In this document: one piece after another, positions 1-49,667 of the stretch
Numbering within the stretch: the first letter of the stretch is position 1
How the letters are laid out: each line of letters opens with the position of its first letter
From: Carya illinoinensis
Taxonomy: Eukaryota; Streptophyta; Magnoliopsida; Fagales; Juglandaceae
Length of the DNA stretch: 64,000 nucleotides
Direction of reading: 5' to 3'
Assembly (NCBI RefSeq): GCF_018687715.1
Contig: NC_056761.1
Span: forward strand, 14,434,501 to 14,498,500
The notes under the pieces: generated by a model
Database searches by the model: none
Seen by the model: the letters and a program-made list of their open reading frames with translations, nothing else
What the model was told of the DNA's origin: nothing
Made by a program: the position numbers and the translations under genes

Positions 1-86
1 CCCAGCGATTAGATAATCGCTGGGAAATGAATTCAAAAACGTAAAGCGATTTACCAGCGATTAAAAAATCGCTGCCAAATAATATC

Positions 87-329
87 CCAGCGTTTTTTTA
101 AACGCTAGCAAAGGTATTCCATAACCGAATTTTTTTCCCAGCGATTATTTAATCGCTAGAATATAAAATGCCAGCGAATTCTCAAATGCTGGCAAAGAAG
201 ATTGAGAACCGAAAATGAAATAGCAGCGATATTTTAATCGCTACCATTTAGTATCCTAGCGATTTAGTAATCGCTGGCAAAAAAATTTCGGTTATGGAAT
301 ATCTTTGCCAGTGATTAAGAAATCGCTGG
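87..329. repeat. Large inverted repeat made of hairpin units (about 84-bp arms)
   Basis: The stretch 87-170 is closely matched in reverse complement by 245-329, including the unique spacer TATTCCATAACCGAA at 115 against TTCGGTTATGGAATA at 287-301. The similarity continues outward into about 52-86 and 330-365. The spacer between the arms (171-244) contains two further hairpin units. This is a palindrome built of palindromes. Confidence 0.8.
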
Positions 330-420
330 CATATTAAATGGCAGCGATTTATTAATCGCCGGCAACTTAATTTATCAACCGAAGAGAAATGGCACAGGAA
401 AAATTATATGCCAGTGATTT

Positions 421-570
421 ATATACCAACGATTCGAAAGTCGCTGGGTTATTTTATAGCAGCGATTTAAGAATCGCTGGCATATAAATTCTGAAACGTG
501 AATGCAATTCCTAGCGATTCAAAAATCGCTGCCATTTAATAAGCCAGCGACTTTCGAATCGCTGGTACAT
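421..570. repeat. Second large inverted repeat in the hairpin array (60-bp arms)
   Basis: The stretch 421-480 pairs with 510-570 over almost its whole length, including the unusual spacer CGATTCGAAAGTCGCTGG on the left against CCAGCGACTTTCGAATCG on the right. The loop is about 30 nt. It has the same architecture as the 87-329 inverted repeat, which suggests the array grew by inverted duplication of multi-hairpin blocks. Confidence 0.8.
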
Positions 571-705
571 AAATTCAAAGCTTGAAATTGTTTTAGTCGC
601 TGCTAAATGAATATTGCAGCCCATAACCATTTATTTCATGGTTTTTAACATTTTTAAATAGCAAGTTTTCAATCGCCGCCAAAACAATTGCATCAAATTT
701 TAATA

Positions 706-753
706 ACCCATTATTCTTACTGGGTCTCATGAGACCCAATAAGAATAATGGGT
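706..753. repeat. 48-bp near-perfect palindrome without loop
   Basis: Arms of 24 bp meet at TCTCATGAGA (centre between 729 and 730). Only one position pair (C at 720, A at 739) fails to match. The arm sequence ACCCATTATTCTTA..TGGGT is unrelated to the AGCGATT units next to it. Its role is unknown; see findings. Confidence 0.9.
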
Positions 754-3096
754 CTCATTAATAGTTCCCAAGCATAAAAATTCACCTAATTTTCTCCCTT
801 TCATCCAATTGTACCTGATTGACATCATCAATTAACATTTCCATACATCATTTCAATATAGCTGAGACCATTCTATCAAATTCAATAATTTCACACAATA
901 ATTCAATTCAATTAACTATCATTGGGTGGAAATTCTTACTAATCATATCTCAAATAGAAGCTGAGCTATTAATTACATAATAAACTATTTGCACTATTAT
1001 ATAATTGATTTGAAGACTATAGTATCACTAAAATAATCTGTACCAAGTTACACATTGAAAGTTTGAAGTGAGACTTATGTTTCAACAGTTCCACCCACAC
1101 TTGGGCACTTTGGGCATTTGATTAACAAAGGTGGCGAGCACGAATATAGAAAACTGACGCCTATTTCTGTGATTGGCCAAGCTTGTATGGCCATATCACC
1201 CCGCTAATCAATTACTCTTCTGATCTATTGCATGGAAGTCAGTACATCCGTATTTTCTGCTGATCATAAAAACAGTGAAACCCAATCATAATGTATTCAA
1301 GTAATTGGAAGAGATACCCTCAAAACTAATATTTAGGTAGTTACCTAAGTCTTTGTATTAAGTGCATCCCGGGCCCATCATTGCTCCATGGTTGGAGTTA
1401 GTAGAATTGCTCATTTGCTATGCAGTAGGAAGATCCACCCCCATATGTTGCATGTATACGCTTTAAATCCCTTTAAAGTACTCATCAAGTAGCAATCAGA
1501 TCCAACACGGATGCAACATATGTCCTGGAAACACAAAATAGAATCAACAGCAGTGCACCGGTACTATTCAGCCCCAAGAGTGAAGTGCAACCTGAACAAG
1601 GAGGAAAGGACAAATAAATGTTCCTATTTTGTAGTCAGTTAAATGACCAGGCAATTATTTAGCAATGACTCCATCAAATTTATAACTATGGATCAACAAA
1701 GCATTCTAAAAACAGTTGCGATATATGACACAAATCTATTACACCCAACCTATGTATGATGATATAAACATATCTGCCTTTTCATAAACATACATTGTGC
1801 TGAATGTATATACCATTAATTCATGTTTATTCTTCTTTTTTTGGAATCTTTCATTTTTTAATTGGATAAAACAGAAGTAATTTATGAAATGCAATGCTTG
1901 TGCGAATCAGAACTTGTCCTGTTGTGCTTACAAAAGAGGACCCCTCAATACATTCTAGGAAAGAGATATTAAACAAGGCAAAATGTCTCGTATATGCAGA
2001 AGTTCATACAATAATTACACATTCAGCAATTATAACCGAACATATCCAGGCTGAATAATCTGGATATGTTCTTATGGACATCACATCAATATATAATGGT
2101 ATCACCGAAGTTTTTAGGAGCTCTGTTAATAATTACATGGGAATACAATGTGGTTGTGTTTCTATATTGGTATATTTCTGCTTCCTCTCTACATTACCCT
2201 ACTGCCAAGAAATACAACACCTGTGACCATTATATAGTTATTATAGTCATAGAATTGGCTTGGTGGGGGTTCACTATTTGTTTCCTTCAAAGTGATTTCT
2301 ATAAAATAGATGAATGCTTTCCACTTTCTGAACCCAAAATATCTCTAGAAGCCATTATTATTGTCCCTTGGGATATTTTCATGAAAATAATTATCACTTT
2401 GAACAGATGCAACGATAAAACATTTCAAAATATTCTGTTATTCCAACAATGTGCTCTATCATGTTGTCTGGCTGCTCAGCATGCATCCATATGTGGCCTT
2501 TTACTCAGGAGTAGTAATGTGCAGTTGTTTTTAGCATCATCTAGTTGTTCTAGGTTTAAGGCAGATAGGGCATAATGGTTCCTCAGTCAAATGAGTTAAG
2601 TTAGTTTTAATCCCCAAAAGGATGTATGAATCATGGTTTTAGCTGGCAGTCTCTGTCACCTTAGCCTTCTTTGAGCAATGCGCAAGTTATTATTTCTCAT
2701 TGTTGCGCATGTAATGTGCTAGAATTCGGTGATCTCTCTATCTTTTTTTAATTGCTTGCAGGATTTTTTTAATAGCCATTTCTGGGAAAGCTCTATACTG
2801 TAATTTGGCACATCCACTAAACTTGCTAGTAAAGGGATCCCAGCGTATAACCTAATGGGTAGCTTATTTAATCCCCCTTTTGGCTTCTAAAATCTAACGT
2901 GAATAATGCCTTGTGTAAGACATGATTGGCAACCTGCCTTAAAGTAATTACATAACTATAGTTTCATATAGAAGAAGCATGGAAAATTAGATTATGGGTG
3001 AAAAACCCACCGGGTCCATCAAAATGGTTTTAGTTCATAATCTACCAAGAAACATGTGAAATTTGAGGAATAACAACTGAATTAAAGTGACCAAAC
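754..3096. other. AT-rich interior of the CACTA element, no gene recognised
   Basis: No domain or exon could be identified with confidence. A 169-codon open frame (2066-2575, plus strand) has no recognisable motif and biased low-complexity composition; I do not regard it as a gene. Since the neighbouring segment carries captured host-gene pieces, intron or UTR fragments of host genes may be hidden here. Confidence 0.5.
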
Positions 3097-3520
3097 CTGG
3101 CAGGCAATAACAGCACTACAACACCCTTCCGTATGTCCATTCATTCTATCAGTAGCCCCACCTGCGCCTCCTCCATCACTCCCCTGCAATATGTTTTTAT
3201 CACAGTTACATATTTTTACATGGAATATATATTCAGTTCTGACCCATCCACAGAATTAAATCTCCATTACCATGTAAAATTTGACAGCCAAGAATTTCGG
3301 CATCGACTTCCCTGCTGCTTTGTAACAGGTACCAACCATCTCAGCCAGTGGAGTTGAATGCTCCTTGCAAGCTTCAGCCTCAACTGGAATTGTTGGGAAG
3401 TAATTCTGATAGAACAGAGATGTAGGCCTATTCTTGAATTCAGCCTCAACACTCTTTTCCAGCATGGACATGAACCTCTTACCACCCCAGGATCTCCATC
3501 TGAAACCAAATCCATTAATA
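3097..3520 (-). pseudogene. Captured fragment of a PLC-like phosphodiesterase gene
   Basis: Two exons of a plant PI-PLC X-domain-like (PLC-like phosphodiesterase) protein can be read on the minus strand. Exon A (about 3520-3271) contains GDPGVVRGSCP in one frame, then, after a frameshift near 3440, NYFPTIPVEAEACKEHS, PLAEMVGTCYKAAG and MPKFLAVKFYM. A GTAATG donor follows; the intron (3270-3184) ends in TTGCAG. Exon B (3183-3097) reads RSDGGG...DRMNGH...CQ and stops at a GTTTGG donor-like site. Family members are extracytoplasmic, often GPI-anchored proteins; this piece covers only part of the C-terminal half of the domain. Frameshift, missing ends and location inside a CACTA element indicate a captured non-functional copy. 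Family recognition rests on motif order recalled from plant homologues. Confidence 0.75.
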
Positions 3521-4007
3521 GACCAAGTCAGCGATTGTGGATAAAGTCATAACAACATTACATTCTTCACCAGCCCGCCTTCATTTTCCACCATCTACTT
3601 CCACTTCCATTCAAAGTGTTAGTGTCATGTTGCTGAAAGATTTCAGTGGATACATTATTAAATTTCTTTATGACACTTGTGAAAAGATAACACTTTTTTT
3701 TTTTTAGGAGTAGCACCAAACAGTCTAAAATGATTTCTTATAGATCCCCTGAAACAAGTAGTCTGAATGGCAAAATAACCATCTAGATGACATAGATATA
3801 CACCAACCTCTAAGGAGCATGCATGGTTTTCCACTTACTCTAGAATTCAAATAGTAGATCTCCCACACGGTAAATGTTGGTTATAATAGTAGCAACCCAA
3901 AACTATCCCAAATCTAATTCCTAGAGTACTACTCCAACATTTATTTTTTAAGTAAAATTCGGTTTATCCAAATCATCGTTACCTTTTCGGGTCAGCTCAT
4001 TCGTTCA

Positions 4008-4789
4008 TCATTGCTGAGCACACTGGATCCTCTGTGCACCACCAGGCATGTCCTCATCCTCGTCTTATGCCTCTTGGGCATGTGCTTGCTTGCGTCTCAT
4101 TTCTTCCTCTATGTTCACATCATGTAGTGTAGTCTCTTCGCATTCATTCAGCTCCATGTCCGTCAGCTGCACCGAACTCCTTGGAGGCAGCACTGTCTCC
4201 AATGTGTTGCACTACTCTAGGCTAAGGGTGTCTGGGAATTCGACTGCAAAGTGAATGTACAATTTCCCTTTCATGAATGACCTCTGGTACATTGGAGTAC
4301 AATCATTTATACCCTTGTATTGGTCAGGCATGACTACTTCTCCAATTTCTGATTTGATGAGGAGCTGCCTAGCATCCAAATGGGTGAATATGAATTGGAA
4401 GCCGCAGTGTGCTTTTGGTTGGTACAAGGTGTGCTCAACAAATATGATAGTTTCACCTGTACCCTTACACTTCAGCAAGCATGCTGCATTTGCTAAATCA
4501 TAGAAGGACCAAGGTGCCTAATTGAGACTTTGATTCAAGAACCTTGACAACCAGAACAATTGTTTGAAGCACCTAACTTGGAGCCTTTACCCTTGCACTT
4601 GGAGCAGATTGCATTGCGAGAGAGGGACAGCTTCTTGGATGTTCCATTGTAGAGGTCCTCCAAAGAAACATTGAGGGGATGGACCACATCCTCTCCCCTC
4701 CTCCGCCTGTGGCCTCTGCTGCTTCCACCACCACCAAAAGGGTTGCCACCAAAGAACGACCGGAATATGTCAAACGCATCATGTCCGCT
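4008..4789 (-). pseudogene. Captured fragment of a type I DnaJ (HSP40) co-chaperone gene
   Basis: On the minus strand the exon begins after a TATCTCAG acceptor (4790) with [15 protein letters not shown] and a Gly-rich segment. It continues with [40 protein letters not shown] and a broken zinc-finger region containing two stop codons and a frameshift. After CKGTGETI about 70 residues are missing. The sequence then resumes with FVEHTL, CGFQF, THLDARQLLIKS, PMYQRSFMKGKLYIHF and ends in DEDMPGGAQRIQCAQQ plus a stop at 4008-4010. That order and the CAQQ tail match plant cytosolic DnaJ homologues (ANJ1 type), which stimulate HSP70 ATPase. The J domain is absent, two zinc-finger repeats are lost and the frame is broken, so this is a dead captured copy. 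It lies in the same orientation as the tnp2 gene and the other captured pieces. Confidence 0.9.
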
Positions 4790-5951
4790 CTGAGATATGA
4801 ATCAAAAATTAACTCATGAATTTCAAGGAACAAAGTGGACAAAGAACAAACATTTTAAAATGATATGAGGAATAAAGCCAGCAGCATATCTCCTTTCAGT
4901 CACCCACTTTATGATCTCAACCAGCCATAAACAAGATATTGAAATGGGCATTCCCAACTAGATATAAAACAAACAGTACTAGCCTCCTAGTGTTTGAATA
5001 AGAATATCAATTATAACTCTACCAAAAAAACTCGGGAGAAAAGACTCATAACAGCCTTAAAAAAGAAAATGATTTGATATGTAAATTTACAATATAATGA
5101 ACAGAATAAAAAAATACGTTTGTTGAATATAAACAAAACCAGGAAAATAGAAATTGCTACAATAGAACTCATTGTTCCATTGTATAACACAGATTAAAAA
5201 AACCATAGAGAAGAAATCCTCATATTTGTCCAATAAAACTCATAATGTCATCAACTCTTCCTGACAACCAATACCATGGAGAAATACAATTGAAGTGTAT
5301 TCTAACAGAAATAAAGACAAACAATACTAGGCAGAGTAAGCATCTCAGAGAAAACCAATTATCAATTTAATTTTTTACAAGTCAGTCATCTCAGCTAAAA
5401 TAAGTGCCACAACCAAGTCTAAAATGGTGAAAGGGGTCGGTGCAGTACAATTCCGAAAAGGTACACGTTGTTTACTATATTATTTTTGAAAATGCATAAT
5501 AAACACTTGACAGATACATCCAGGCGTTTTTACATTCAACCATAACAGCATACCTTAGGAATGCGTTTGATAGTATGTTTGACTGGAACTGCTGCTAAAT
5601 AAACAACAAGAAGGAAGAAAGAGCCTCAGAGAGAGTCTTAAAGTGAGAAGCATATAAGAGAGTGTCTCGATCAAAAAAGCATAGAAGAGATTATTAACAT
5701 AGGTCATACTAAAAGAAGTTGTGAGAACGCTAATAGTAACATTTAATTTTGCTATTCGATAAAAGCATACGACTGGAAAGTGACAAATGACTGCTAAATA
5801 TTGTGCGTGATCTACTACTACGAACATTCATATTAGTCTCGCCAAAGTGCCTATTACGTGCAAAAAAATAAACACGCATGTAACAAGTCGGACGAACTAA
5901 AATTAACATGTAAGAAGCCTAAGGCCAATAAGTTATGCATTTAAGTCAAAC
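4790..5951. other. AT-rich stretch between DnaJ and kinesin fragments
   Basis: The part next to 4790 looks like a host intron, because the DnaJ exon starts behind a proper AG acceptor. The remainder has no exon I can name and presumably mixes captured intron sequence with transposon filler. Confidence 0.45.
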
Positions 5952-6432
5952 CTTCTCTTGATTCTATGAGCTTCAACACTTGCTTTGCGTTGCTAACAAT
6001 TTCCGCCCTTAGACCTGCAACAAATTTCCCACGCTAAACGGCAAGAAAAATTAGTGATTCTATACATCTAAACGAACTATAATAAACTCTAAAATTGTCA
6101 ATACCAACCTCCAAACTCTCATGTATTTGCAATTTCTGGTTCTCTACGGCTAAAAGATCATTAATTTCTGGGAAGTTCAAAGTTTCTGTCAAGGAAACCC
6201 GAATTAGAAGCATGACGGTCAGATATCTGAATTTATTACGCACCAACAGAAATCCTGTTAGATTTGAAAAGATCATTATAAATAAATACAACATCAGGAA
6301 CATTCATGGACCTGCTTACCATATGAATTTTTGCAAATATATCAATCACTACCTGGCGAATAATCCCTGGATCAGTTTTATAGCCATTCATAGTGAAAGT
6401 CTTGCCACTACTAGTTTGTCCATATGCAAATG
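5952..6432 (-). pseudogene. Captured kinesin motor-domain fragment, three exons
   Basis: Three minus-strand exons with GT-AG borders. Exon 1 (6432-6320) encodes FAYGQTSSGKTFTMNG, the kinesin P-loop, then DPGIIRQVVIDIFAKIHM before GTAAGC. Exon 2 (6236-6109) follows TTTCAG and, after a small frameshift, reads LLIRVSLTETLNFPEINDLL and AVENQKLQIHESLE before GTTGGT. Exon 3 (6033-5952) follows GTTTAG and reads RGKFVAGLRAEIVSNAKQ then VLKLIESREG. Residue order and spacing fit the N-terminal half of the motor domain of a plant kinesin-7 (CENP-E-like). Switch I/II and the rest of the motor are absent, and exon 2 is out of frame. Together with the DnaJ and PLC pieces it shows host genomic DNA, introns included, acquired by the transposon. 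The subfamily is a recollection-based guess; the kinesin identity is firm. Confidence 0.9.
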
Positions 6433-6913
6433 CTGTTCAGAAATAAAAGTGCTCCTTAATCAGCTTGAATGCTAATAACTAAATGACATGTCTAATTAAA
6501 AAAGAAAATCACTACATTCTTCTTTTCACATTCCGCGTTAAATAGACATAGAAGATATTCTGGTTAAGCTCTAATACTGTTGTTGTGGTCACCTCGACCA
6601 CTTGAAGAGTGGTCGTTAGAGAGTACTTACCTCTTGGTACTAAAGTATTATGAGTTTGGCATGGCAAAGAGGTAGCGGAACTCTCGTATAAGTTTCCTAG
6701 CAATTTAGAAGCGAAATACATGCTCAAAAAAGTCCTAAAAAAAGATGACATCGGGCCGAGCCTTGCGTCTTCTCCCCAGTGTTGACATAGTACGTTTTAA
6801 GCACATATATATATATATAGTAATATATATATAATATATATATATATATTGCCTAGCTGTCATGGCGACTACCAAAAAACCACCCAAACGTCCAAAAAAT
6901 GTAGGAACCCCCC
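6433..6913. repeat. TA-rich microsatellite and junction segment
   Basis: A run of TA dinucleotides with small interruptions occupies about 6805-6850, between the kinesin fragment and the 3' end of the transposase-like gene. Nothing coding is recognised between 6433 and 6913. Confidence 0.6.
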
Positions 6914-8924
6914 TTATGGGTCGGGGGTCTCATTACACTGAGTTTGTCGATATGACTCAGTGAATGACGGATGATCCTTAAAAAAGGACTGAAGCAGTCT
7001 GTCAGTCACAAACTGATGCTCCCTAAGAGCCCGCATCTCTGATCTCATTTCTTCCAGCTGACTCTTATAGTCATCAGTATCTTTCTTATGTTGTTCAGCA
7101 TCTTTCTTGTGTCTTTCAATCTCAGATAGGTAGCATTGCATTTTAAGTTGGTCACGTTGTCGCGAGGACTCGGGGATGACCATCTCCCCGAGTCCTCCCG
7201 CATATCCAGGTCGATGGCCAAGGACCTCCCTAAAGACAGTCGCAGCTACCTCATCACAACGTTGCTCTGGTTCTAGGCCATCCAATCTACCTTGCATCTC
7301 CTTCTGCACAACGGTAAAACAATAATTATTAACAATCTCAGCATGTGCTATGTATGCAATATATTATTTTTAGAAAGAAACATAGAAGGACTAGGACTAT
7401 TCCAATGTACTACTCACGTAAGCATCTTCCGCAGCTTCTGTCACAAACTTATTTGACTTCTTCGACCAGCGCGTCTCCTTATAGAAGTCAACCAAATTCC
7501 CATTCTCAGCGCGCTACATTTTTGAGCATTAAGTATAAGATTTCAATTTTTCCCAGTTGAAAAAGTATTGGCAACCACATTTAATTTTAAGCTCAACATA
7601 TGCTTAATGTACTACTACCCAACACTCAGTTAATCATATCACCCAATTACAAAACACACTTTAAGTTCACATGTAGAGGGCAATATCTATTAATACTTAG
7701 AGGATACTTAAAAGTTATTGGTATGAATCCTCATACCTTTTGCTCAAGTATTCGGACGAATGATTTACGTCCTGATGTGTGATTAATTGCCTGCTTCTTT
7801 CAGTTTTCCCGATTTTGAGATGAAATTTTTTGCCATGCACATAAGTCATGTTAGCTTAGTTAAACAACCAGATTTGCCACAACAACAATGGAACATGACT
7901 AAATGGAAGAATTTCTGGTTTAATTTGAATAATTACATATATACCTTAAAGGCATCACTACCCCACCTGCCACACAACTTGACCCATACAAGGGGGTCCA
8001 CTAAGCTTGTCCCATGAGCTAACGCTTCTTCATGGCTTCCAAAGGATTCGTAAATCTTGTGTAAGTCGTGATGGAAGCTGTTGAAGCGCTTACGAAGTGC
8101 CTTTGTCACCGTCAATCGGTGGTTTTCATGTTCCCAGTCGAGCACGAAGTCAGACTACAAGTCATAGCAAACTAGTATTAATGTGATGGTTACCAACACA
8201 TAAACCACTTACAACTAATAATTTGAAAGTAACCAACCCGATAACTTACCCGAACGTGGTCAATTAGCTCCTCTTTCATGGCTTGTGGGACATCAGTCCA
8301 TTGCGCATAACTCATGTCGCAAAATTGTTTAACAATCCTTGATACTCGTGTTGTGAACATAGAAGCGTGTTCACAACACGGGGCAGTCTCACCATCGTTA
8401 ATCTTTAAAAGCACTTTATCGTGCTTCCTCACTTTCTCAAACTCGATGCATCTAGCGGGCCCACGAGATCTTTTTCTCTGTTGCTGTGTTACTTTGGGCT
8501 CCGTGGGGGCGTCCACAATTGTATATCAAAATATACACTAGATTAGTGTATGTAATCAAAAAGTGTATCTTTACACTTACAAGCACATATGGAAGGGTCA
8601 ACGCATTCATATTGACAAATCACACACCAGTTTGTGGTATACTACTTTCTTCCATTCTTGCGTCTTCTCTAGGAGGCGATTGTCCCCGCACTGATTCGGG
8701 TTCTCGAATAGGCGCAGATGTGGGAATTGGGTTGGTTGATGGTGGGGGACTTGGAGGCTGTGTCGAGTCATCCGAGGAGGATTGATTACACTCCTCAGGG
8801 CTATGATATGAGGCGATTTTTGCTCTCCGTGGTCAGTTGTGGCACGCCGAGTACGGTACATGGCGCCTAGCACGAATACCTCAGAGTCTCCCTCCACCTC
8901 TAGAACTAGGTCCCGCTTGGTCAC
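6914..8924 (-). pseudogene. En/Spm second gene, Transposase_24-like product (degraded)
   Basis: Exons on the minus strand, in order: a Pro/Ser-rich linker with a frameshift (about 8924-8640; frame with DSTQPPSPPPSTNPIPTSAP); 8516-8248 (RSRGPARCIEFEKVRKHDKV and WTDVPQAMKEELIDHVR) ending GTAAGT; 8153-7948 (SDFVLDWEHENHRLTVTKAL) ending GTATAT; about 7835-7735 (WQKISSQNREN, a TGA, KKQAINHTSGRKSFVRILEQK) ending GTATGA; 7515-7416 (NLVDFYKETRWSKKSNKF) ending GTGAGT; and 7309-6914 (LDGLEPEQRCDEVAATVF, then a heptad-rich coiled coil). This layout matches the plant transposase Ptta/En/Spm (Transposase_24) family found downstream of tnp2 in CACTA elements. Its proposed role is DNA binding or partnering in transposition. 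The TGA in the conserved exon and the linker frameshift make it non-functional here. Confidence 0.8.
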
Positions 8925-9610
8925 CTGCGTGTGTATGAGTTAATATCATTGTGTTTAAATGTTAGGTCCATTCCACAAAATAACTCAAAGTCACATAAAC
9001 CAATTGAAATGAATTGATCAGTTATCTATCGTAACCCATGAAGTAATCGAAAACGTGTATTTGAGTGACAATAACTTAACGATCTTCCTTATATACCTTG
9101 ATAATTGATAGTGCTCCTCATGCCTCCAACTTGAAGATGAGATTGCATGATAACCCAAAAGAATATGTGAAAGCAAATCCAACCCAAACTTTGTCCACTT
9201 CAGCCTTAATGCAACATAATAATGTTTTCCCCTCACCTGAGCAAGAATAATATGATACACATTAGAAGTCAAAAAAATTCAGAAGAAATAAATATATGAT
9301 AACATAAATGTTAAGAACTACATATTAGTTCAATCCTAGTATTAAAAAATTATACTTCAGATGGTTTTAATAAATCAATCAAAAAATGAATGTCATACTT
9401 AATGGTTTTAATCTGCCGTGGTCACCTTCCGGTCAGATTTTTGTTTCTGGCTTGTAATTATAAATCTGAAGCATACTCTTCGTCTGTGGATAGGTCATCC
9501 TCATCTTAATAGTCCCCCTCACTATACGCATCTCCAAAACCAGAAGGAATCATGTCATCATTAATAAACCCAGATTCTTCTATAACTTGACCAGCCACAT
9601 GCATGACTTC
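8925..9610. other. Spacer between the two transposase genes
   Basis: No domain found. An 84-codon minus-strand frame at 9018-9272 has no recognisable motif. The segment probably holds introns or UTRs of the CACTA genes. Confidence 0.4.
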
Positions 9611-12600
9611 TCATGCATCAATATGACTAGGTGGTATATCAATCCTATCCAGTGGAGTTGACACTGGATCTGCATTATCGCACTGAACTGGTTCATAATA
9701 AAATGATGACTCACTTTCTTGATCGTCTTCATTAGTACTTGGAAAACCCACATTAATATCTTCCTGAGTGCTCAACACGGACGGAATGTTGAATACATTC
9801 CTATTTGTATAGTTCTGCACAACACCCCAATTCCCTTTCGACCTTAAATCTCTTATGTAGAAACATTGTTCAGCCTGACTCGCCAACATGAATGGTTCAT
9901 CCTTATACCAAGTCCTGTTCATGTTGACACTAATCATATGGTCATTCACCCGAACTCCTCGTTTTCTATCACCAACGTCAAACCAAGCACATTCAAATAG
10001 GTACACCCGAGCCACTCCATGTAGCATAACTCGATGATATTTTTAAGACAACCGTAAAAGTCTGCGTTATTTGTGGCATCATCCCCGGTTACCAACACTC
10101 CAGAATTTTGTGTATGTCGGTGCGTTTCACGATGCTTCGTATGAAACATTTTTCCATTTATTATGCAAGCATCATATGATGCAACCAACCGGTCAGGCCC
10201 ACAAGCCAACGCATACAGATCAACAGAGACATCAAGTGGATTCTCGGTACGATGTTCCTGGATCTATAAGAAAAAAAAATTGAAAATTTACAATGTATAT
10301 TTTCATCATTCCAAAACATATCAAAAAATCTATAATATTTGACATGTGATAAGGATGGAGAAGAACTTACACGGTGCTTGAACCAAGTTGGAAAGTCAGT
10401 TTGATGTGTGCGATCGATGGAACTTGGGTGTTGCACCTTACATTTCTCGTAGTGTTCCCTACATTTGGAGCACGGAATTGCAAACCAATAATGGCAAGAC
10501 GTTATTCTTGCATATATAAAAACTGGTTAAAATTGAATGTAAATAGAATTTGCAGTAAACTCGTTGATGCTTACTGTATATAGGGTCCAATCTCTGAACA
10601 ATTGTTGAGCACATACCAGATGGCTGCCTTAAAGAGTTTATCTTCTAATTGCACATTGGAAGCTATACCCAAGGGACGAACTTTTTGGTTAAAAATTCTG
10701 AATCCATCTATAGTTTCCTCTTCATCAGCATCAATATTGCGGTCCGCTCGATTGAACTTCATCTCTACATCTTGGAGGTATATGGAGCAAAATGTCAGGC
10801 ATTCAGTGTGAATGTAGGCCTTGGCTATTGAACCATTTGGTCGGGCTTTATTCTTAACATACCGCTTGAATTTGCCGAGATATCTCTCAAATGGGTACAT
10901 CAACCTATATTGTACTGGTCCCCCAAGTATGGCCTCACGGGGCAAATGAACAGCTACGTGGACCATGATATTGAAAAAGGAGGGAGGGAATATCATCTCC
11001 AGTTTGCAAAGAATTGTAACAATATCTATTTGGAGCTGGGATAGGCGATTCACATCCAGTGTTCGAGCACACAACTCTTTGAAGAAAGTGCTAAGTTCAG
11101 TCAAAGTCAAGGCAATGTCACTTCTTAAAAAACCCTAGCAACGATTGGGAGTAGTCTTTGAAGGAAAACATGACACTCGTGGCATTTCAACCCAGTGATT
11201 TTGCAATCGCGTAGAGAAACACAGTTTGAGATATTGGAAAAGAACCCGTCTGGAAATTTTAGTTCAGACAGCCACTCACAAAATTATTTCTTTCATCTCC
11301 GTGTAATGTGTACAGTGCATTTGGCATTGTTACATGATCACCTTCATGCCTCAAATGTAACTCTTTTCTATAGCCCAATATCTCCAAGTCATGCCTTGAA
11401 TTGATATTATCCTTCGTTTTTCCTGAACTGTTCATTAAAGTGAATAAGATGTTTTCGGAAATATTCTTCTCAATATGCATAACATCTAAATTATGCCAAA
11501 GTTGAAGTGTTGACCAATAAGATAACGTGAAGAATATGCTGCACTTTGTCCAATTCAGCTCTTCAGCAGTACGTTTTCTCTTCCTACGAGATTTGCCAAA
11601 CATCACATCCCCAATCATTTGCAATTGAGTTAATATATCGTATCCTCCTATATCTCTTGGTGGCATGCGATGATCTTCTTTACCATTGAACAACCCTTTT
11701 CTCCTTCTCCACATGTGATCTGGCTGTAAGAAACGTCGGTGTCCCATATAACAATGTTTTCGGCCATATTTCAACCAATAGCAATGTTTTCGGCCATATT
11801 TCAACCAATTGGAGTCTGTGTTGGCATTACAAGTCGGACAAGCTAATTTTCCCTTTGTTGACCAGCCAGAGAGATTCCCGTAGGCAGGAAAGTCATTGAT
11901 TGTCTACAATAATGCAGCATGCAACCTAAATGTCTCCTTAGTTGAGGCATCATAGGTAGGTACCCCATATTCCCAAAATTCAAGCAATTCATTGATCAAC
12001 GGCTGCAAGTAAACATCGATCTCATTCCCTGGTGACCTTGGGCTTGGAATAATCAAAGATGTTATAAAGAATTGGTCTTTCATGCATGACCACGGCGGCA
12101 AGTTATACGGGACAAGGATCACAGGCCAAATGCTATGAGGTTTAGCCAAGTTGTTGAACGAAGTGAAGCCGTCACTTGCTAGTCCGAGCCTAACATTGCG
12201 AGGATCCACAGTGAACCAACTATGATGTTCATCAAATTTCTGCCAACACTCAGAGTCAGCCGGATGTCTCATACTGGTATCTTCTATCGGCCGTTGGTCT
12301 TTATGCCATCTCATTTCACCTGCTGCAATCTCGGTTAAAGAGACGCTACAATCTCGGTTTCAATGGAAAATGACGCAACACTTTTTGAGGTATAACACGT
12401 GATCCATGCGTATTTGGAATCCACCTTGAAGCCTTACATACAGGGCATTCATTAAGAGCGGCATTTTTCTTCCAGAATAAATTGCAGTCGTTGGGGCATG
12501 CATGGATTTTGTTGTAATTGAATCCCAACCCGCACTCCAAAGACTTTGACTCCTCATATGATTCTGGCAAAAGCGCATCAGGAAAGGAAGACTGCAACAG

Positions 12601-13158
12601 ATCAAGGAGCATGTCAAATGACTTAATTGACTATCCACCGATTGATTTGATATGTAATAACTTGACAATGAATGACAATTTTGTAAATTTAGTACACCCG
12701 TCAAAAAGAGGACGTCGGGCATCCTCCAGTAGCTGGTCAAACGTAGTTGATGGTGAACCTTTTGGTATTGGTGGCCTATTAGGCGCAGTAGTGTTGTCTT
12801 CGGGCACATCAACAAAGGTGCCTGACCGGATGTCATCCAACATATGCTACATGTCGTCGATGTAATCATCTTCTGGTAAAAACTCGTCACCAACAACATC
12901 GTCACTGACGTTCAATATTGCCTCCTCCTCCCCATGAAATATCCACTGTGTGTAATTTGGATTGATCCCTTTGATAAACAAATGGGATTCCACCTCATTT
13001 GTTGGTAGCCACAGATTGTTAAGGCATGTACGACATGGACAACGAATGCGATCCCGTCCAGAAGCATGCCTTCGTGCTTGTGTGAGGAAATTTTTAACCC
13101 CTTCGGTATATACAGGCGATAAAAGTCTATCGGCCTCTTTCATCCAACTTTTGTCCAT
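9611..13158 (-). pseudogene. CACTA tnp2-type transposase (degraded)
   Basis: Minus-strand gene with the family's domain order. It starts at MDKSWM (13158) with a transposase-associated domain (CPCRTCLNN, HLFIKGINPNY), then the Tnp2 core: YNKIHACPNDCNLFWKK with CPVCKASRW, DPRNVRLGLASDGF, TINDFPAYGNLSGWSTKGK, and LWHNLDVMHIEKNISENI. Next comes DUF4218 (about 11110-10571; FFNIMVHVAVHLPREAILGG, PFERYLGKFKRYVKNKARPN). DUF4216 lies at about 10209-9611 (ACGPDRLVASYDACIINGKM, VYLFECAWFDV), separated by intron(s) near 10240-10570. Breaks: TAG codons around 12849, 12630 and 11903 (the last where the family has Trp, L-L-W-T-I-N-D-F), a frameshift plus stop near 12315-12350, and frameshifts near 11260 and 10020. 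Intact relatives catalyse excision and insertion at CACTA ends with 3-bp target duplication. This copy cannot make a full product. Confidence 0.9.
11752..11811. repeat. 30-bp in-frame tandem duplication inside tnp2
   Basis: Two adjacent copies (11752-11781 and 11782-11811) starting CAATGTTTTCGGCCATATTT differ only in the last bases. In the transposase frame this doubles the peptide KYGRKHCY(W/M). Because it keeps the frame, it may predate or be neutral to the other inactivating changes. Confidence 0.9.
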
Positions 13159-13159
13159 C

Positions 13160-15304
13160 TAAAAAAAATAAAGAAGGGAAAAAGAGTTAAATCAACAGAG
13201 ACCGTTTTGGCACAGTAGTTGATGAAGTCACATTTTGCTATTAGCACGGGAGAAATGGGGAATACTAATATATGGTCGATGGATAGTATGGCGGGGGCAA
13301 AATGAAGTATGAACAGTAATGTTTCATGCAAAAGTCGAAGAATGGTCTCATGCCACTTGTTGACATAAAGTGTATAATTCATCCTTATCACTCCTCTACA
13401 AGTGTATCATATTTGATTTCATGTCATACTAGAAAGGTGGGCATGTTAGGCTATTAGCATAGAAGCACTATGAGTTGAAGGACTGAGTGATGTTGCACAG
13501 TTGTAAGTTAGGAATCGAGTATTGGAGAAGCCTAAAACCCGATGGTACTCCAATATTGATTGAGTGAATATGCAGAATCGTTATCAATTAGACACGTCAA
13601 CTACCCATATACCGTTAGTTGTGCCCAGAGGAAGAATGTTTAAATTGAAGAACATTTATTTTCAGGGCAAACTAACTATCGCTAGACCTTTCTGGTCATG
13701 TATGGCTGAAGGATAATTGGTTGTATGGACGTATATGTACCAGATGAAGATCATGATGCAAATGGGCAGATATTAATATAATTTGCATCTTGTTTATTGC
13801 ATTAAGTGGGTTGCTCATTTCTGGGAATTTTTCCCGGATAAGTCGTCATCTACATTAAGGTGATGACAAACGTGGAAATGATGCTAGCTCCGTCGTCCCT
13901 AGTTGTCTATATAGGAAATGACACGAAATGGATAAAAACCCCTATATAGTATATTTGCTGCTGGTCTATACATCTATTGTATTGGCCAACCCAATCATGT
14001 CTACACACTGTAATTAGTAATAGATAACTAGTATTAAAGCATTCACACACGACAAATCAGATCGGGCCATTCATTAAGCTAATTCACCTCGAGCCATTAC
14101 TTGGAAAAAAAAAAAGGAAAAACATGTGATAGTATTAACTACATGTAGCGTAACAACATGTCAGCCACCCTGACTCTCATATAGAAATGGGAAAAAATCA
14201 AGAGTAAGAAGTAGTCATGTGAAACTATCAAAGTGAAAGAAAAGCTATACCTCAATTAAATCATACATTGAGGTATAGTCAAAATAGGGTTTGAATTACT
14301 CGAAGATCAGACAACGTAGATATCCAATTAAAGGTCTACAATTCATGCCAAAAATATATTTATTAAACAAAGACATAAAGCCGAACCATTATGTTCAGAG
14401 ATTTCTTGAAACGAAGTAAAAACATCATATTAAATACAATGATTGCAGTAGTTACCTTCAATACCCAACTAAGAAAGGTTCGGATGTGCCCTGCTTGAAA
14501 TGACGCCCCAAAACAATTCGCTCAACCTTAGTCAACACAGATTTAACTCAATGCCACTCGATGTCCATCCTATTACTCTGCACTGGAAAATCCAAGTGAT
14601 TTTCAGTTTCAAATCAAAAGTAGCATATAACAATAACAAGCCACAGGGGAAAAAATGTATGAAAAAATAAATAGGAGTAGTGGTTTTAAGCACACCATTA
14701 ACTATAGAAACCAACAAGGCTACATTTTAATACAAAGCACATTTGAAGGGTAAAATCAACTACAAAGAACAACTTTAACCCATTTAACTTCTCTCCATAC
14801 ATTTGAGCACACAGCCAAACCTTTAAAACTCCTAAGTACCGCAGAACTACGCATGTAAATGAATCCATGAACATGACTAATAGCATGCGTGCTGTTGAAT
14901 AACGGCCATTGAGTTTTTTGGGGTGTTCAATATATTTATCTGCACAGATAAATTCAACCCAATAGTTGTATGTTGAAATATGATGCATACACATTCCAGT
15001 TTCGGGCCACATAGCAAGCATTAGACCCTTTGCCCTTAAACGTTCCTACTTCAACTTGATGTTTTTAGGATAATGCTTGCTAGACATGAATATATCATGT
15101 GCCAATACATACTTTGAAAAAGGTCCTGGAATTTATCGTTCATTTTCTAGGCGATATGATTTTCTGCTTTAGTGATTAATGGAGCATGGGTAGCAAAATG
15201 AGTTTCTGATGTTTCACCCAAACATAAGGAATGTAAAGAGGGGTTTTCTTTTGTATACTTCCAATCAATCCATGTGGCTAATTTCTAAACATTTGCTTCT
15301 AATT
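13160..15304. other. CACTA interior upstream of tnp2
   Basis: AT-rich, no recognisable domain. A 107-codon minus-strand frame (14698-15021) and a 61-codon one (14532-14717) have no motif I recognise. The region would contain the tnp2 leader and first intron(s) if transcription starts near the 5' terminus. Confidence 0.4.
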
Positions 15305-15314
15305 AAATTACTTC

Positions 15315-17052
15315 CAATCTATGGGGTTCTTCTTTGGAGAATAGAAAATGAAAATGGGTGTCCTGGAATATGATTTGCAAGCCTATGGAGGAGGGGGGGG
15401 TCTTGGTATTCGTGATTTGGTGGACGTACAGGAATCGTTGTTTATGAAGTTTGGTTGGAAATTAATTTCGGGAAATTTGATGTGGTATGAATTTTTCCAG
15501 AAAAAGTATCTTCGCCGGGAACATGTTTATAAGGCTATGCAAATGAAAAAGGGTCACGGTTTTGAAAGGGAATAATGGAGATTATGCCCAAAATTATACA
15601 GAACTCGAAGTGGTTGATTGGGAATGGTAACATTAATTTTTGGATGGATAGGTGGATTGGGAGTGAACCTTTGCAGGAGGTGTGTCCGGTTATTGGGAGG
15701 AATGATTTGCTACTTGCAGATGTGGTGGATGAGAGAGGGCCTAATATTGACGTGTTACGTAATCTGGTTCCGTCAAATATATTGCATCAGATTTGTGAAG
15801 CAGGTGTGCGTATAAAGGATAGACTAGATGTGTTTGTGTGGGAACATTCTTTGGATGGAAAATTTACTACAAAATCAGCATGGGAATTATGCAGGAAGCG
15901 TGGAGTACCTTGTGAGTGGAAGAAATGGTTGTGCCTTGACAAAATTCCAAAAAAAATGTCCTTCCTATGTTGGAGGGCAAATAGAGGAATAGTTCCGACA
16001 GATGATGTAATTTAGAATCTATCCATTCCTTTAGCCTCTAAATGCAATTGTTGTATTGCTCCTAATATTGAATCTTTGCAGCATGTTTTATGTGAGGGCC
16101 CGAATGCTCAAATGGTTTGGAAATATTTTGCTAATATTAGCCAAATTAGGTTGCCGCATATTAGAAATTGGAAAGGGATGATGTCTTTTTGGTGGCAACG
16201 AGCTAATAAACAATCTCAAGCAGGATGGATCCGTGGTATGTTACCTATTGTTATTACTTGGTGTTTGTGGAAAGCAAGGTGTTCGGCAAGGATGGAAGGG
16301 GTTCCGTTTCAGGTTAAGGCTATTATTCGGCAAGTTAAAATTATTGTGAAGGAAAATGAACGTTTAGTTATGGAGGAGCTCAATATTCCGGTTGCTTCTA
16401 TAAAAGGAAAAAAAGTTACCTATGTGAAGTGGGAGTTGCCGAGAAGGGGTATGGTTAAATTGAATGTTGATGGTGGGGCTCATTGTAATCCGGATGAGGC
16501 AGGGGGTGGGGGTATTATTCAAGACTCTAACGGTAGAGTTATTGCTGGGTTTGCACATCATTATGGGATTGCTACAAACACGGTTGTGGAATGTCGTGCG
16601 TTGCCAGATGGGTTAAGGCTTTGCAAAATCTAGGTATGCAAAATGTTTTGGTAGAATCAGATTCTTCAGTTATCATGAATTGGATTGCTTCTGAAATATG
16701 TAGACTTTGGTTTCGTTGGGACTTTTGGGAAGAGATAAAGGAGTTATCTAGGGAGATTAATGCTCGGTTTAGGCATGTGTTTCGAGAAGCTGATATGGTT
16801 GCGGATTTTTTAGCGAAGAAGGGGACTTTTGGGGATAATACAGATTTTGTGGGGCTGGATTTTGAGTTTGTAAGGCTTAGAGGTTTCATTCGTATGGATA
16901 GGTTGGGGATGGTTGTTATTAGAGAGAAGTGATTTTTTATTTTCCAAGTTTTTGTATCTAAGGTATTCCTCCATTAGAAGTGAGGGTTTTTTAATAATAT
17001 TTGGGGTAGGGATCCCTCTACATGGGATCCTGACTTTAAAAAAAAAAATAAA
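15315..17052 (+). mobile_element. 5'-truncated LINE inside the CACTA element
   Basis: Only the 3' part of a plant L1-type ORF2 is present. After the frame with KWVSWNMICKPMEEG, a run of eight G (15393-15400) shifts the frame to GLGIRDLVDVQESLFMKFGW. Then follow NSKWLIGNGNINFWMDRW, a zf-RVT region, and an RNase H domain with VKLNVDGGAHCNPDEAGG. Stops or shifts lie near 15573, 16013 and 16610. The RNase H tail runs to a stop at 16932, then a 3' UTR and an A-rich tail at about 17038-17055. A target-site duplication AAATTACTTC flanks it (15305-15314 and 17053-17062; the leading A's could be tail). Reverse transcriptase catalytic motifs are missing, so it arrived dead, as truncated LINE copies do. 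Confidence 0.85.
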
Positions 17053-17062
17053 AAATTACTTC

Positions 17063-20000
17063 TTGCTTATCCAAAAAAATAAATAGAGATTCAACTTTAT
17101 TTAATGATCTATAACAGGGAAAATGTGGGATTATCTTTTTTCCCATCTGTTTTGGAGCAAATATATAGGTTGTATAAGCAAGTTTTGTGTCATATGAATT
17201 GGAAACTGTGCTGGTCTAGTTTTATAATGGGTTTTGCATCATGTTGTTACATTCAAACATTAGATGTTGATTGCAAATTTTGGGGGGTATTTGTGAACCT
17301 CTATAATTATTTTCTAAAGAATCTGACAAAGGCAATGGCAAGCATCCTTACATTGCTCACTGTTTTAAAACAAATAGAATGCTAGCCTAAAAGACTAAAT
17401 CCAATGACAGAAATGAAGATCATAAAAAAGTGAATCTCCATTAACAATGTTTCATTCAACTGTGATGACTGAAACTAATATGGTTAAATAAACAAATTCA
17501 CATTTACCTATACTACCCAGTACTATCATGATAAGAACATTGAAGACAAATATTTACCAGCAAAATGATAGATAGTAGTACTCGGTTTACAGGAGGATGA
17601 CTTATAATCCTAGCTACATCTTCAGATTTTACCGTGAAAATTTCAAAAAATCAAGAGTACTCAAATCTTTTCCCCTATTGTTTGGAATGAACTCATGAAT
17701 ACATGAAACAGAAGGATGATAAGCATCAACAGATTACATAAGTGCACAAAAGAAGATTAAACTTGACAATAGGTCAGGATTTCTGTTGTTTGTATTATTC
17801 CTTAAAAAAAAATAAAGCCTTTCACTTCAAGTTTTAAGTATTTATCAGACAACTTCATGTATGTACATGAAGGTTAAGATAGACAGCTCTGGTGATCTTA
17901 ATTACTGGTATCACCGGATTTCAAAGGGTCTCATCAATTTCTCGACTCCAGACAATGGCTGGATTGTATTAGATTGTACATCAGAAGGCATTTTAGGTAA
18001 ATATCTCTAGAACAATAATTCCTCAGCCAAAAATAACATTAGCTAAAAAAATTATAACTCAGCAGTAAAAGCTAATATATATATCCTAAATAATTATCCA
18101 AATCTAAATGATATGAGTCAGTACATCACATAAAAATATAAGTAGTACAGTAAGAATGAGATATTAAAAACCATTAATTTGCAGGCAACACTCTTGTACC
18201 ATTAGGTCTCGTGTATTATATTATATATATGGAGATCACATAGCTATCTAGCTGTTGAAGTTGTGGAGACAACATTACTAACAACTTTCTGTTGCAAGAT
18301 AAAGGCTACCAATTCTAATTTCTGTACAGAAAGAGAAAATGGAAAAAGAGACTCCATGTATTCAAGTAATTTATTGAGGATATATATCCAAATATATTTA
18401 TATAATATATTTGGATAATATATGACACAACCAGTGTTGAGAATGGCATTCAAAATACTACTGACATTAATAACACAAAGTATATTATTGGAGGAGTAAC
18501 CTTTATATATTTATACACTCATGATCATGATCATCATGTACATGCAATATATAAGAAAAGCAGGCAAAAGAGATACAAAGTGGAGCCAAGCCTTTGAGAT
18601 GCATGGCGGGCCAAAGACCCCACAGAGATAAAGGAAGGGAGAAAACAGCTTTATAGGGAATATGGAGGGGAGTTTTGGATGATTGAACTGAAGTAAACAT
18701 ATACTCTTCCTTTTACTGATCAATTCTTATTGATTGTATAAAAATATAAATTAAAATGTTTTATATTTTTTTAACCTAATAGGGTTTCTAAGATGGTTTA
18801 TTTTAAGAAAAATTCAAAAAAGAGATGAATAGCAGAAAAAGGCAAAGGGCATGAATATGACATGACTTAGTCCGGGTGGATTTTGCAGTGGAAACCTTAA
18901 GCTGTGGAGGGTGGTGGCATGGGAATACAAAATAGAATTAATTATAATTATAATCATAATATATATATATATAAGTGGATTGCAAGAGAGTTTGTAATCA
19001 TGGGGGAAGCATGTTCACTTTCTGCCTTTTCATCACTTTCTAAGGCATGATTAGAAAAAAGTATCTCAATCTTCTCCCTCACCTAAAGGAAAGCATTTCC
19101 CATATCACACCCTCATTCCCTTCACTTTCTTCAATACAACACCAAAACAGAAGTTCGCTTCTCAAGACTTCTACTGCACTAAATAGAATATTGACTAGAG
19201 GAGAGATACTTTACTTACATGATTTTAGCAGAGAAATACTTTATCTATATATTTAAGTTTATAAAAGTAAAAAAGCCTTTACAAACTAGCTTTACACAGC
19301 GATTTTTTGAACATATATAAATTCAAAATCGAGCTAGATAACTCATATACTTGTTATATAAAAGTGTTTTTATCGTCATTGTCTTAGTTATTTGGTGATG
19401 GAAAATTAATAACAAAAGTTGAGATAGATCAAATAATTTATGTTACACATCTAGTCATGTTTAGTTTGGATTTCAAATTTTTCCTTTATATATATATACC
19501 ATCATTAGAAATTAAGAGAGTGATATATGATCTCATAATTGTGTTTAACTAATCACATTAATCTAACACATTCAATAGTTTAATGATGCACTAAACAGAT
19601 TGAGCCACTATTTTAAAACTCAAATTATGATAATTTGAGTTTTAAAAATTGAGAAATTAAAAACTGCCGCCTAAATAAGTAATTGGATGATCGAACGAAG
19701 TACCCTGATTTCAAAGCAACACGGGTCTCATTGAGAGTGAAGGGTTGGATGAGTACTTAAGCTTAATTCCACTTTGATCTAAAACTAGTTTAGGTTTGTT
19801 CAATCAAACAATCAAGAGTTAGATGACCCACTTTCAATCTTTATTACAATATTTGGTGAATCAAATTTGTAACTCAGGATCTAAGACTGTCTTTGCCAGC
19901 ATGGAATCTGAATCAAGAAGCAGGAATTTTGTCTTCATGCATGAGCTGGTGGGGGTTATATAGGAGACTAGAGAGGAAAGTAGAGGGGTTAAAACATTCT

Positions 20001-20990
20001 GGAATTATATTGTTGAAATAGTGAGCGATATCATTTTTGGAGGAATTGTGGAGTCTTAGCACCAAGCAGAAAAATATGTTCATCTTTCTTTATAATAATT
20101 CAGTATTAATGGGATATAATACTGCTCTTGTAAACATATCTATTACACAGTGTTAAGCTTATTGCCTACAATCATATTATAAAATATATCTAACTTTTAT
20201 TGTTTAGGCAGTTACCTAAAAATTGACATCTTCATCTGCCTATAATAACATAATACCATATTCCTCCATATCTGTCTACATTTTGTCATGCTAATTAACA
20301 ACATGTGACTTTGTCAGTGATTCTCAACTAATAGTGGGTTTTGCTAGGAAATAGCATTTTTATCAAAACTGAATAAATATAAGTAAGCTTAAAAAGACAG
20401 CTTTAGGAATAAATAAACATTACCATGAGCTTTGTTTGAAAATCCCACCTAGTTTCAAGCAACCAAGCATACCCAAATGGAATTTAACAAGCATGATGAT
20501 TTTTGGAAAGAACAAAAGAAACTCTTGGTATATACAATTTTTTGTTTAAAGCCTGCATGGACAATGTTGGAGATATACGGTTACTTTTTCCCTAATCAAT
20601 AATCTACCAAGAATGTAGCCCTAAAACTAACCACAAATGCACATTGTTAGATGAATGGAGAAATCACAGCAACAAATATATTGATCAGTGAAACTGCATA
20701 TATATTTGAGGTTATATATGCAGAAATTGCCAACTACCAAGAATGATATTCAGCCCCAATGAATCGATAATATGCACCCAATCGACAGATCACAAAAAAA
20801 AAAAAAAATACATATAAAAAACTACAAAAAGTTTATTCAGAAATAATTTGTGCATGTCATCCAACAATCCAAGTAGACAAACAAATGGCGCTATGTTCAT
20901 GCTCAACATATGGAGAAAATAACGAGTTCCAAACAGAGTTTGTGAGTAGGAAAATACCTTGGACACGCTGAGCAGCACCTGAGCAGTGGA
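17063..20990. other. CACTA interior, no gene recognised
   Basis: AT-rich sequence with TA runs near 18215 and 18960. A weak minus-strand frame at 17890-17995 (DVQSNTIQPLSGVEKLMRPF) could be an exon piece, but I cannot name it. Another at 18244-18453 is similar. No transposase domain was found here. Confidence 0.4.
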
Positions 20991-21641
20991 TTTTGGACAA
21001 CCGAGGGCTCAGAATGGATTGGCAAGCCTCAAAGACAGGATGTTTGGGACACCAATTTTAGTGGGATTTCTGGTAGCTCTAATGCACAATAGAGGGTGAT
21101 TTTGGCAGCAATCGCCGTGTGTACATATGCATTCAACAGAAGGGGGATTTAATTTTTGGTAGCTGAAGTATTGGGTGGCCGAAGTGGAAGATTTGAAGGG
21201 GGTTCACAGCAAAACTAATGGGTAAGCCGATCGATGGATTTAATCGCTTGGAGACCAAAGATGGAGCTTCGGGAGCATTTCGGAAATGGGGAGAAAGGAA
21301 CTACCACGTATGGATTCGCCGGAACCGATTTTAGTTGCAGGTGATGGAAAATCGCTGACAAACACACACGGAGAGCAAAGAGGGCACAATACTGCATAAG
21401 TCGCAGGGAGGGAAATAAAATCCAAGTTTGGCGCCGGACAATATTTATTACATTTAGCAGTGAAAATTTTCGCCGCTAGAAGCATTAATTTCACTACTAT
21501 ACAGGCAGTGACCCTTCTCGCCAGCTTTCCAATTATTTTCTCTAGCGAGTAAAAAATCACCGTTATAAGTAATATATGCCAGCGATTTCTTTGTCAGCGA
21601 TTCAAAAATCGCTGGTAAAAGCCCAGATTCTTGTAGTGATT
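20991..21641 (-). mobile_element. 5' terminal region and terminus of the CACTA element
   Basis: Terminal CACTACAAGAATCTGGGC on the minus strand ends at 21638, with ATT outside. Hairpin units of the AGCGATT/AATCGCT type lie at 21578-21616 and degenerate ones at about 21480-21560. Only two or three units are seen, against about a dozen at the other end, so the two subterminal regions are strongly asymmetric. This end should carry the promoter for the minus-strand transposase genes. Confidence 0.85.
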
Positions 21642-22392
21642 ATTTAATTATTTGGCTACGTCAACTATATATAAAAGAAAATTTCTAATATCAAGTAGGT
21701 AGATAGAACACATATAATAAATTTTAAAATTAAAATATTATAAATAAAATCTTTCTATTGAAGTAATATATACGGATGATGTGGTCTACCAACTTGAGAA
21801 TATATAGAATAGTCTATTTCAAAAAAAAAAAAGAGAATATATAGAATAACTCTATATAAAATGCGATTCTTTTAACAATTAAACCATTTATAACTTTTTA
21901 TAAAATTCTGAGAACAAACTACGGAATTAGTCCCGTCTTTCTACATAAATATAATGTTATTTTTTCTTTTGATTTTTAATTATTGATGAATACGAAGTTT
22001 TATCAATTAAAAAAACATTCTGCTTATTATTTTCTATCTACAATATCACACATTAATATTAATTTATTATTTTTCTTATTTTATTTAAATATATATTGGT
22101 ATATAAATATATATTTAAAGAGAATCATAAAAATGATCAATCATGATATACGTTGTAGCTAGAGACGATAAATATGATTCAACTATTCAACAGACACGTA
22201 CACGACGTTGAAGAAGAAGTAATTAATTAATTTGATGGTCGTGACTCGTGGGGCTTTTCTCTCCTAATCGTAATTTCGGGACGATGGAATCCCTTTAAAT
22301 ATAAGTGACGTCTCGCTTCTTCTTCCTCTCACAGTCTCACTGCAACAACACCACTATAACTTCAAATACCTCAACCAATATATACGCTACTC
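21642..22392. other. AT-rich upstream region of the receptor kinase gene
   Basis: All of the DNA between the CACTA terminus and the kinase start codon. Very AT-rich up to about 22180, then a more balanced stretch with a TATA-like element and a CT-rich leader. No coding sequence. Confidence 0.5.
22294..22305 (+). promoter_or_regulatory. Putative TATA box of the LRR receptor kinase gene
   Basis: TTTAAATATAAG lies 88-99 bp before the ATG, followed by a CT-rich leader (CTTCTTCTTCCTCTCACAG) typical of plant 5' UTRs. A TGACG motif directly after it resembles an as-1 half site. Position and composition are the only evidence. Confidence 0.5.
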
Positions 22393-49086: not shown

Positions 49087-49667
49087 CCTTTCCTTTATTT
49101 ACAATTGCAAGCATAGAAACCTTCTCTCCTCAATTGAGAAATGAAGACTCACACTTCTCCTTAGTCACTTTCCATAAACAGAAAACGGTTGAGAGAAGAC
49201 AAATTTTGATTCTTAAAAGCTTATAATTTATAATTTAAGTAATCTCTCAGAAGCTATTTGTTATAATATATAGACCTAGTTTTTTTTTCAGCTAAATAAT
49301 TCTACTTGTTAGATTCTGAGTGTTGGCACCAAGTTGTGTCGTACAACGGTTGATGGATTTGTTATTTGATTTTTCTCTCAGGAGCTATTGTTATAATAAA
49401 TAGGCACGTTTTTGTTTTTTGGGCTAAATAACTATGCTTGTTAACAACAGATTTATCTGATCTACATGTCCTTGATTATTTTCTATGGAAACAAACACAT
49501 ATTTGGTGTTTTAAAATTTTCAAAAGAAAAGGTTTATGTTCTCAAGTGTATGAAACAATGTGATAAAAGCACTTATGATCTTTTGATTTTTTTTTTTATG
49601 TGATAAAACAATGTAAAATCATGAAAAGCTCTCTGCCACACAGTAATAGGATCAAAATTTGATTTTT

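Follow-up and report, generated by a model that had tools for sequence, protein, structure and literature searches.

A CACTA transposon in pecan with pieces from at least five putative host donors, including a likely spliced DnaJ retrocopy

The stretch of pecan (Carya illinoinensis) DNA analyzed here, in the following called the window, comprises 64,000 nucleotides (C10:14434501-14498500) of a genome that comprises 674 Mb on 17 contigs. At its left side lies a CACTA (En/Spm) transposon with both ends present, which carries transposase gene remnants together with pieces that match host loci elsewhere in the genome. The original prediction, made from the letters of the window alone, had described a single CACTA element of more than 21.6 kb with captured host genes, and had asked beforehand for a leftward extension to find the other CACTA end and its ATT duplication. 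Both were found when 20 kb left of the window were scanned. The left terminus lies 176 bases outside the window at window position -175 (C10:14434325), it reads CACTACAACAG on the plus strand and CACTACAACAGATTGGAG in the flanking 20 kb, and ATT stands directly before it. The opposite end (21535-21638, minus strand) consists of 5' subterminal repeats and the terminus CACTACAAGAA at 21628-21638, followed by ATT at 21639-21641, which forms a target-site duplication with the ATT at -178 to -176. The full element measures 21,814 bp, 21 of 28 terminal inverted bases are identical between the two ends, and the CAGCGATT/AATCGCT motif clusters close to both of them. Inverted CACTA termini, a 3-bp duplication, subterminal repeats at both ends and a TNP2-type transposase, by which CACTA / En-Spm elements are recognized, are all present. 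Across the whole window, matches to CACTACAAGAA with at most two mismatches occur at chance level (27 observed, 25.35 expected). The element's own terminus reads CACTACAAGAATCTGGG, from which the pattern CACTACAAGAAAACATG differs, so that the two genome matches of that pattern (L001, L002) are uninformative on the family.

Remnants of the TNP2 transposase gene extend over 9611-13158 on the minus strand and match Transpos_assoc, Transposase_21, DUF4218 and DUF4216 in Pfam, with an E-value of 7e-91 for Transposase_21 when stops are read through; a stop codon lies within the tnp2 domain near 11904, and the transposase is disabled. A second transposase-side gene (6914-8525, minus) matches Transposase_24 only weakly, at 15.8 bits and under the cut-off. 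At the other side, a 3' subterminal array of about 12 palindromes (1-594, minus) extends toward the terminus at -175, and positions 1-600 hold eight exact copies of AGCGATT and nine of AATCGCT.

The host-derived DNA lies between the second transposase gene and this array. Window 600-6900 served as query against the pecan genome and gave 83 matches, and among the candidates scored, the best 40 of 255, five stretches each have a separate best non-element locus, on C7, C5, C13, C1 and C11. A kinesin motor piece (5794-6559, minus) corresponds at 88% to its probable parent C7:37709782-37710543. The adjacent stretch (4821-5770, minus) matches C5:6825230-6826163, its probable parent, at 86%, between the PFU and PUL domains of a C5 gene. 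A DnaJ subfamily A copy (3707-4789, minus) has its probable parent at C13:4393927-4396149 (89-97% over 3707-4786), and a PLC-like phosphodiesterase piece (2964-3691, minus) at C1:2263470-2264441 (89-94%). Finally, 2156-2768 matches C11:43434197-43434803 at 90%; the match itself does not fix a strand, which would be plus if the piece derives from the gene neighboring a MutS_V match. Five donors on five contigs are packed here into 4.4 kb, the pieces nearly abut, and four of the five share one strand; these alignments point to at least five donor loci. The original prediction had named three captured genes, kinesin, DnaJ and PLC-like, all in the orientation of the transposase genes, which is minus, and had advised a genome search for parents and other copies. 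The placement of these pieces inside the element, their strand and their identities were borne out, and the search returned probable parents on C7, C13 and C1 as well as further element copies. The count was too low, as the stretches at 2156-2768 (possibly on the opposite strand) and 4821-5770 have to be added, and the extents were too short: kinesin, given as 5952-6432, is longer in both directions, and DnaJ and PLC, given as 4008-4789 and 3097-3520, extend over the coordinates above. Separation of the host pieces from tnp2 by another CACTA end, which would have contradicted the original prediction, was considered and dropped, since a window search with CACTACAAGAA revealed no second terminus between them; a single match with one mismatch lies at 10444.

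The kinesin piece is recognized by Pfam (E 6e-28), and its closest solved structures are CENP-E motors. Its exon parts (6320-6434, 6109-6210, 5953-6033 and 5796-5855, minus strand) are separated by retained introns, and the alignment with the C7 parent runs through these introns over 771 columns at 88%. The splice acceptor ahead of the last exon part is lost and another part holds a rearranged stretch. At C7, the kinesin motor exons extend past the captured part (profile 76-308), so this locus is a gene and not one more fragment; a paralog at C8:5.578 Mb matches at 73%. The PLC-like identity is based on protein matches, five of five of which carry PF26178. The piece alone gave no Pfam and no PDB match, and the C1 locus likewise no Pfam match. 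Its exons, near 3511-3271 and 3183-3097, are still separated by an intron, there is a frameshift near 3432, and 243 bp of parental coding sequence are missing at 3598-3605. The parent is open through GDPGVVRGSCPKRKES...SASLFFQNYF, the site of the frameshift in the window. At the C5 locus, PFU (40.8 bits, cut-off 26.2) and PUL (31.6 bits, cut-off 25.5) enclose the captured stretch, which is probably mostly intron; PLAA/Ufd3 is a name in use for this domain pair.

From GT-AG introns it had been concluded that genomic DNA and not mRNA was captured. This holds for kinesin and PLC, but not for the DnaJ piece, whose identity is given by human DNAJA2 (E 1e-40, PDB) and plant DnaJ A members. It lacks two GT-AG introns of its parent, 85 and 598 bp long, by which capture as genomic DNA is rejected, and by coordinates the parent shows an 82-bp gap near window position 4731. 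The window copy is also without 214 nucleotides that the copy at C13:32.4 retains, including a spliced junction of GATGAAGCG to CCCGATACT at the site of another parental intron. Right after the DnaJ 3' untranslated region follows a poly(A) tail on the minus strand, seen as 12 T on the plus strand (3694-3705), and comparable runs occur in sister copies. The natural stop codon and the 3' untranslated region are kept, whereas the piece is 5'-truncated and has four in-frame stops and one frameshift. A second DnaJ locus lies in tandem at C13:4.389 Mb (82-95%). Processed pseudogenes generated by long interspersed nuclear elements (LINEs) are intronless, 5'-truncated and carry poly(A), and the DnaJ piece resembles them in all three respects. 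It is likely a spliced, polyadenylated retrocopy that would derive from messenger RNA (mRNA).

Relatives of the element contain subsets of the pieces and bear on the order of capture. The relative at C1:2.79 Mb (L026) possesses the C11 and kinesin pieces, the PLC, DnaJ and C5 pieces are absent, and the space between the two that are present is DNA shared with the family member at C3:23.65 Mb. In five distant family elements (C1:30.68, C8:37.75, C14:29.65, C4:32.92 and C14:14.41), about 315 kinesin columns align at 83-84%, and among the matches listed only the 3' region and this kinesin stretch were found, with no PLC, DnaJ or C5 match. The C1:2.79 Mb relative and the five distant elements have a kinesin border in common, at position 1392 of the parent locus. 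A kinesin tree with the C8 paralog as outgroup sets four element copies apart from the C7 parent (ultrafast bootstrap 100); against parent and paralog, the three full copies share 28 derived columns out of 741, and 11 out of 724 are common to all four once the relative at C1:2.79 Mb is added. Because family members hold kinesin without the PLC, DnaJ or C5 piece, stepwise growth is supported, and the stepwise capture proposed in the original prediction appears likely. Kinesin was most likely captured first, in a single early event, the C11 piece prior to the branching of the C1:2.79 Mb relative, and the PLC, DnaJ and C5 (PFU/PUL) pieces later. Of the five distant elements (L035, L037, L038, L039, L041), four are nearly identical to each other in the short kinesin piece, which points to recent amplification.

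These subsets also bear on the idea that all pieces had stood joined beforehand at a single host locus rich in pseudogenes, from which one event captured them. The almost end-to-end arrangement and the common strand of four of five pieces would agree with it, but one relative has two pieces only and five others have kinesin only, and no non-element locus with more than one piece, which could also have spoken against the original prediction, was found among the matches listed from the best 40 of 255 candidates, so that we regard this origin as improbable.

Finished copies of the mosaic exist as well. With both ends present, CGT on either side and all five pieces, the element at C1:44261817-44284822 matches the one in the window at 94.5% over 7,169 columns; a copy at C13:32.42 Mb also has all five pieces and additional DNA in its 3' part. 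As these two hold the complete set, the five-piece mosaic likely moved as a unit. In the copy at C16:2.12 Mb (L017), a deletion derivative, 4316-4712 and 5151-17164 are missing and with them kinesin and the transposase genes. At C3:32.8 Mb, -175 to 2095 is fused to 21049-21635, with no clear duplication seen. At C14:26.98 Mb (L018), -175 to 2925 is joined almost directly to 21350-21638 in a 3.7-kb element with AGT on both sides, a compact, Pack-CACTA-like form that bears the C11-derived piece. Small hybrid-like relatives of this kind speak for a model in which two nearby related CACTA elements lost their facing ends and moved as a hybrid with the intervening host DNA, repeated rounds of which would yield a mosaic, as has been proposed for Arabidopsis Pack-CACTA elements in the available text of PMC13317346 and PMC8903248. 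However, the five donors lie on five contigs, their pieces are packed here into 4.4 kb without terminal motifs clustering between them, and flanking chromosomal DNA cannot supply a spliced mRNA copy unless a pseudogene was already there. We therefore consider such fusion of neighbors rather unlikely as source of this mosaic.

The account that we favor, with some but not high confidence, is that of a CACTA element in which five host pieces were gathered stepwise by patching of breaks, among them an mRNA-derived DnaJ copy, and which then moved as a unit. Breaks inside the element would have been patched with copies of unlinked host DNA, the genomic pieces through repair with template switching and the DnaJ piece through reverse transcription of an mRNA, and the finished mosaic would have been transported to new sites as one unit. 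More tentatively, and with considerable doubt, it can be suggested that this CACTA lineage has a preferred docking zone, from the second transposase gene to the 3' hairpin array, which repeatedly collected host DNA, namely genomic pieces of four chromosomes and a spliced mRNA copy as repair filler without a LINE-type duplication, and that its relatives preserve the stages from kinesin alone over kinesin with the C11 piece to all five.

Several points weigh against the favored account of stepwise patching. Scoring covered the best 40 of 255 candidates, so that donors closer than those named may exist. The assignment of the C11 piece to a gene neighboring MutS domain V is weak, the MutS_V match reaching 21.8 bits against a cut-off of 30.2 and lying 1.2 kb away on the strand that corresponds to window plus, and two fillers, 4790-4820 (31 nt) and 5771-5793 (23 nt), are without traced source. 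The DnaJ piece differs from LINE-mediated processed pseudogenes in that it sits in a DNA transposon and in that no exact target-site duplication is visible around it, and LINE-type insertion is consequently not proven. With respect to the order, pieces that are missing from the relatives could once have been present there, and the C1:2.79 Mb relative has C11 and kinesin pieces that exceed those of the full copies in length. In kinesin, this relative shows 26 differences from the parent, as against 48-55 in 741 columns for the full copies, and its tip branch of 0.019 against about 0.089 in the other copies does not fit a clock. A rate difference or gene conversion may account for this slow change. 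Once the distant elements are added, the tree covers 178 bp and its deciding branches reach supports of only 79 and 66, so that kinesin may also have been captured separately. Also the divergence is weak on the order, with 48-55 of 741 for kinesin against 21-37 of 576 for DnaJ and outgroups that are unequally distant.

A further question is whether the mosaic yields a used product, a chimeric transcript or protein. The pecan gene model I3842_10G099300 spans the captured PLC piece (3471-3094) and the element's own DNA, in which its last exon (VALHSWG stop) occupies 1571-1594 on the minus strand, and a precedent for chimeric transcripts is described for soybean Tgm-Express1 in the available part of PMC1947982. 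Yet the model comprises only 103 amino acids, there is a frameshift relative to the parent, the DnaJ piece has four stops, and the copy at C1:44.26 Mb diverges by some 5%. A used product seems highly improbable to us, and we think that this model is transposon DNA annotated as a gene, assembled from captured PLC sequence and from 3' DNA of the element itself. From their disrupted frames, the kinesin, DnaJ and PLC fragments appear to be disabled cargo for which a protein function is unlikely, and chimeric transcripts of transposon and host exons are no more than a prediction. A second pecan model, I3843_16G049500, has its best match, among four element copies compared, at C16:2.12 Mb (L017; 81% over 64 amino acids), and it may be a further annotation that covers part of this mosaic.

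It had also been suggested that small RNAs could arise against the parent genes, for which we found no support. Inverted repeats in the element join no two fragments, barring short AT-rich matches that do not exceed 50 nt, and a long hairpin was seen at the terminal array alone. As the fragments are not inverted, they would not be direct targets of the array hairpin. The folding of window 1-600 far exceeds that of its shuffles (z -24.5), and the array, if transcribed, could form a long hairpin that could silence the element itself. A near-perfect 24-bp palindrome at its inner edge (706-753) is kept in other family members (85-96%).

The element's own 3' non-coding region (600-2140, minus) is common to many family members (many loci, 72-96%). 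At 15315-17052 (plus), the 5'-truncated 3' end of a LINE with zf-RVT and RVT_3 is nested between copies of AAATTACTTC, outside the capture. Read-through Pfam scans for more protein-coding cargo in 600-3100 and 13150-21640 gave LINE domains and a sub-cut-off DUF7419 match (E 0.022) only, and no RNA family matched at the gathering threshold across the window. Beyond the element, a leucine-rich repeat receptor-kinase-like gene occupies 22360-27075 on the plus strand, with a probable start around 22393, about 750 bp beyond the right end, and a kinase part judged by eye. At 43728-49098, minus-strand frames resemble a long LINE, reverse transcriptase-like as judged by eye.

Multi-gene capture by CACTA elements is already known. 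Soybean Tgm-Express1, a CACTA element of 5.7 kb, contains pieces of genes for an unknown protein, CDC2, fructose-6-phosphate 2-kinase, malate dehydrogenase and cysteine synthase, according to the available text of PMC1947982, and like the pecan element it joins exon-intron pieces from five unrelated host genes. The pecan element differs from what is described there in its size of 21.8 kb, the transposase remnants, the several copies, the one spliced retrocopy and the genes concerned. In Arabidopsis, maize and rice, Pack-CACTA elements likewise enclose host DNA between CACTA ends, and Pack-TYPE elements are described as non-autonomous in the accessible part of PMC8903248. The pecan element has such host fragments, but as it carries transposase genes, even if disabled, it is not filed as Pack-CACTA; the C14 copy is nearer to that kind. 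Chenopodium CACTA elements provide another eudicot example of transposase-coding elements with host fragments; in the text available of PMC8978399, each element has a single kind of captured gene in its 5' region, as compared with five donors in the 3' half here. Searches of the open-licence literature returned nothing on CACTA fragments with kinesin and DnaJ or on a PLC-like phosphodiesterase with CACTA, and for CACTA with a captured retrocopy or processed pseudogene none of the papers listed was on topic by title and abstract start. For Carya illinoinensis and CACTA, the matches apparently came from words such as Cactaceae. The pecan element stands out through a spliced retrocopy that lies amid genomic pieces and through the co-occurrence of retained transposase genes, preserved donors, copies and apparent intermediates.

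For annotators, the gene model that overlies this element is a reason for caution. The way in which CACTA elements acquire host genes is under debate, and a spliced mRNA copy in the cargo of a DNA transposon is a useful constraint on the mechanism. With donors, finished copies and apparent intermediates in one assembly, the borders can be aligned at single-base resolution, and if this lineage indeed has a preferred docking zone, the succession of captures and the joints between the pieces could be read directly from its living relatives.

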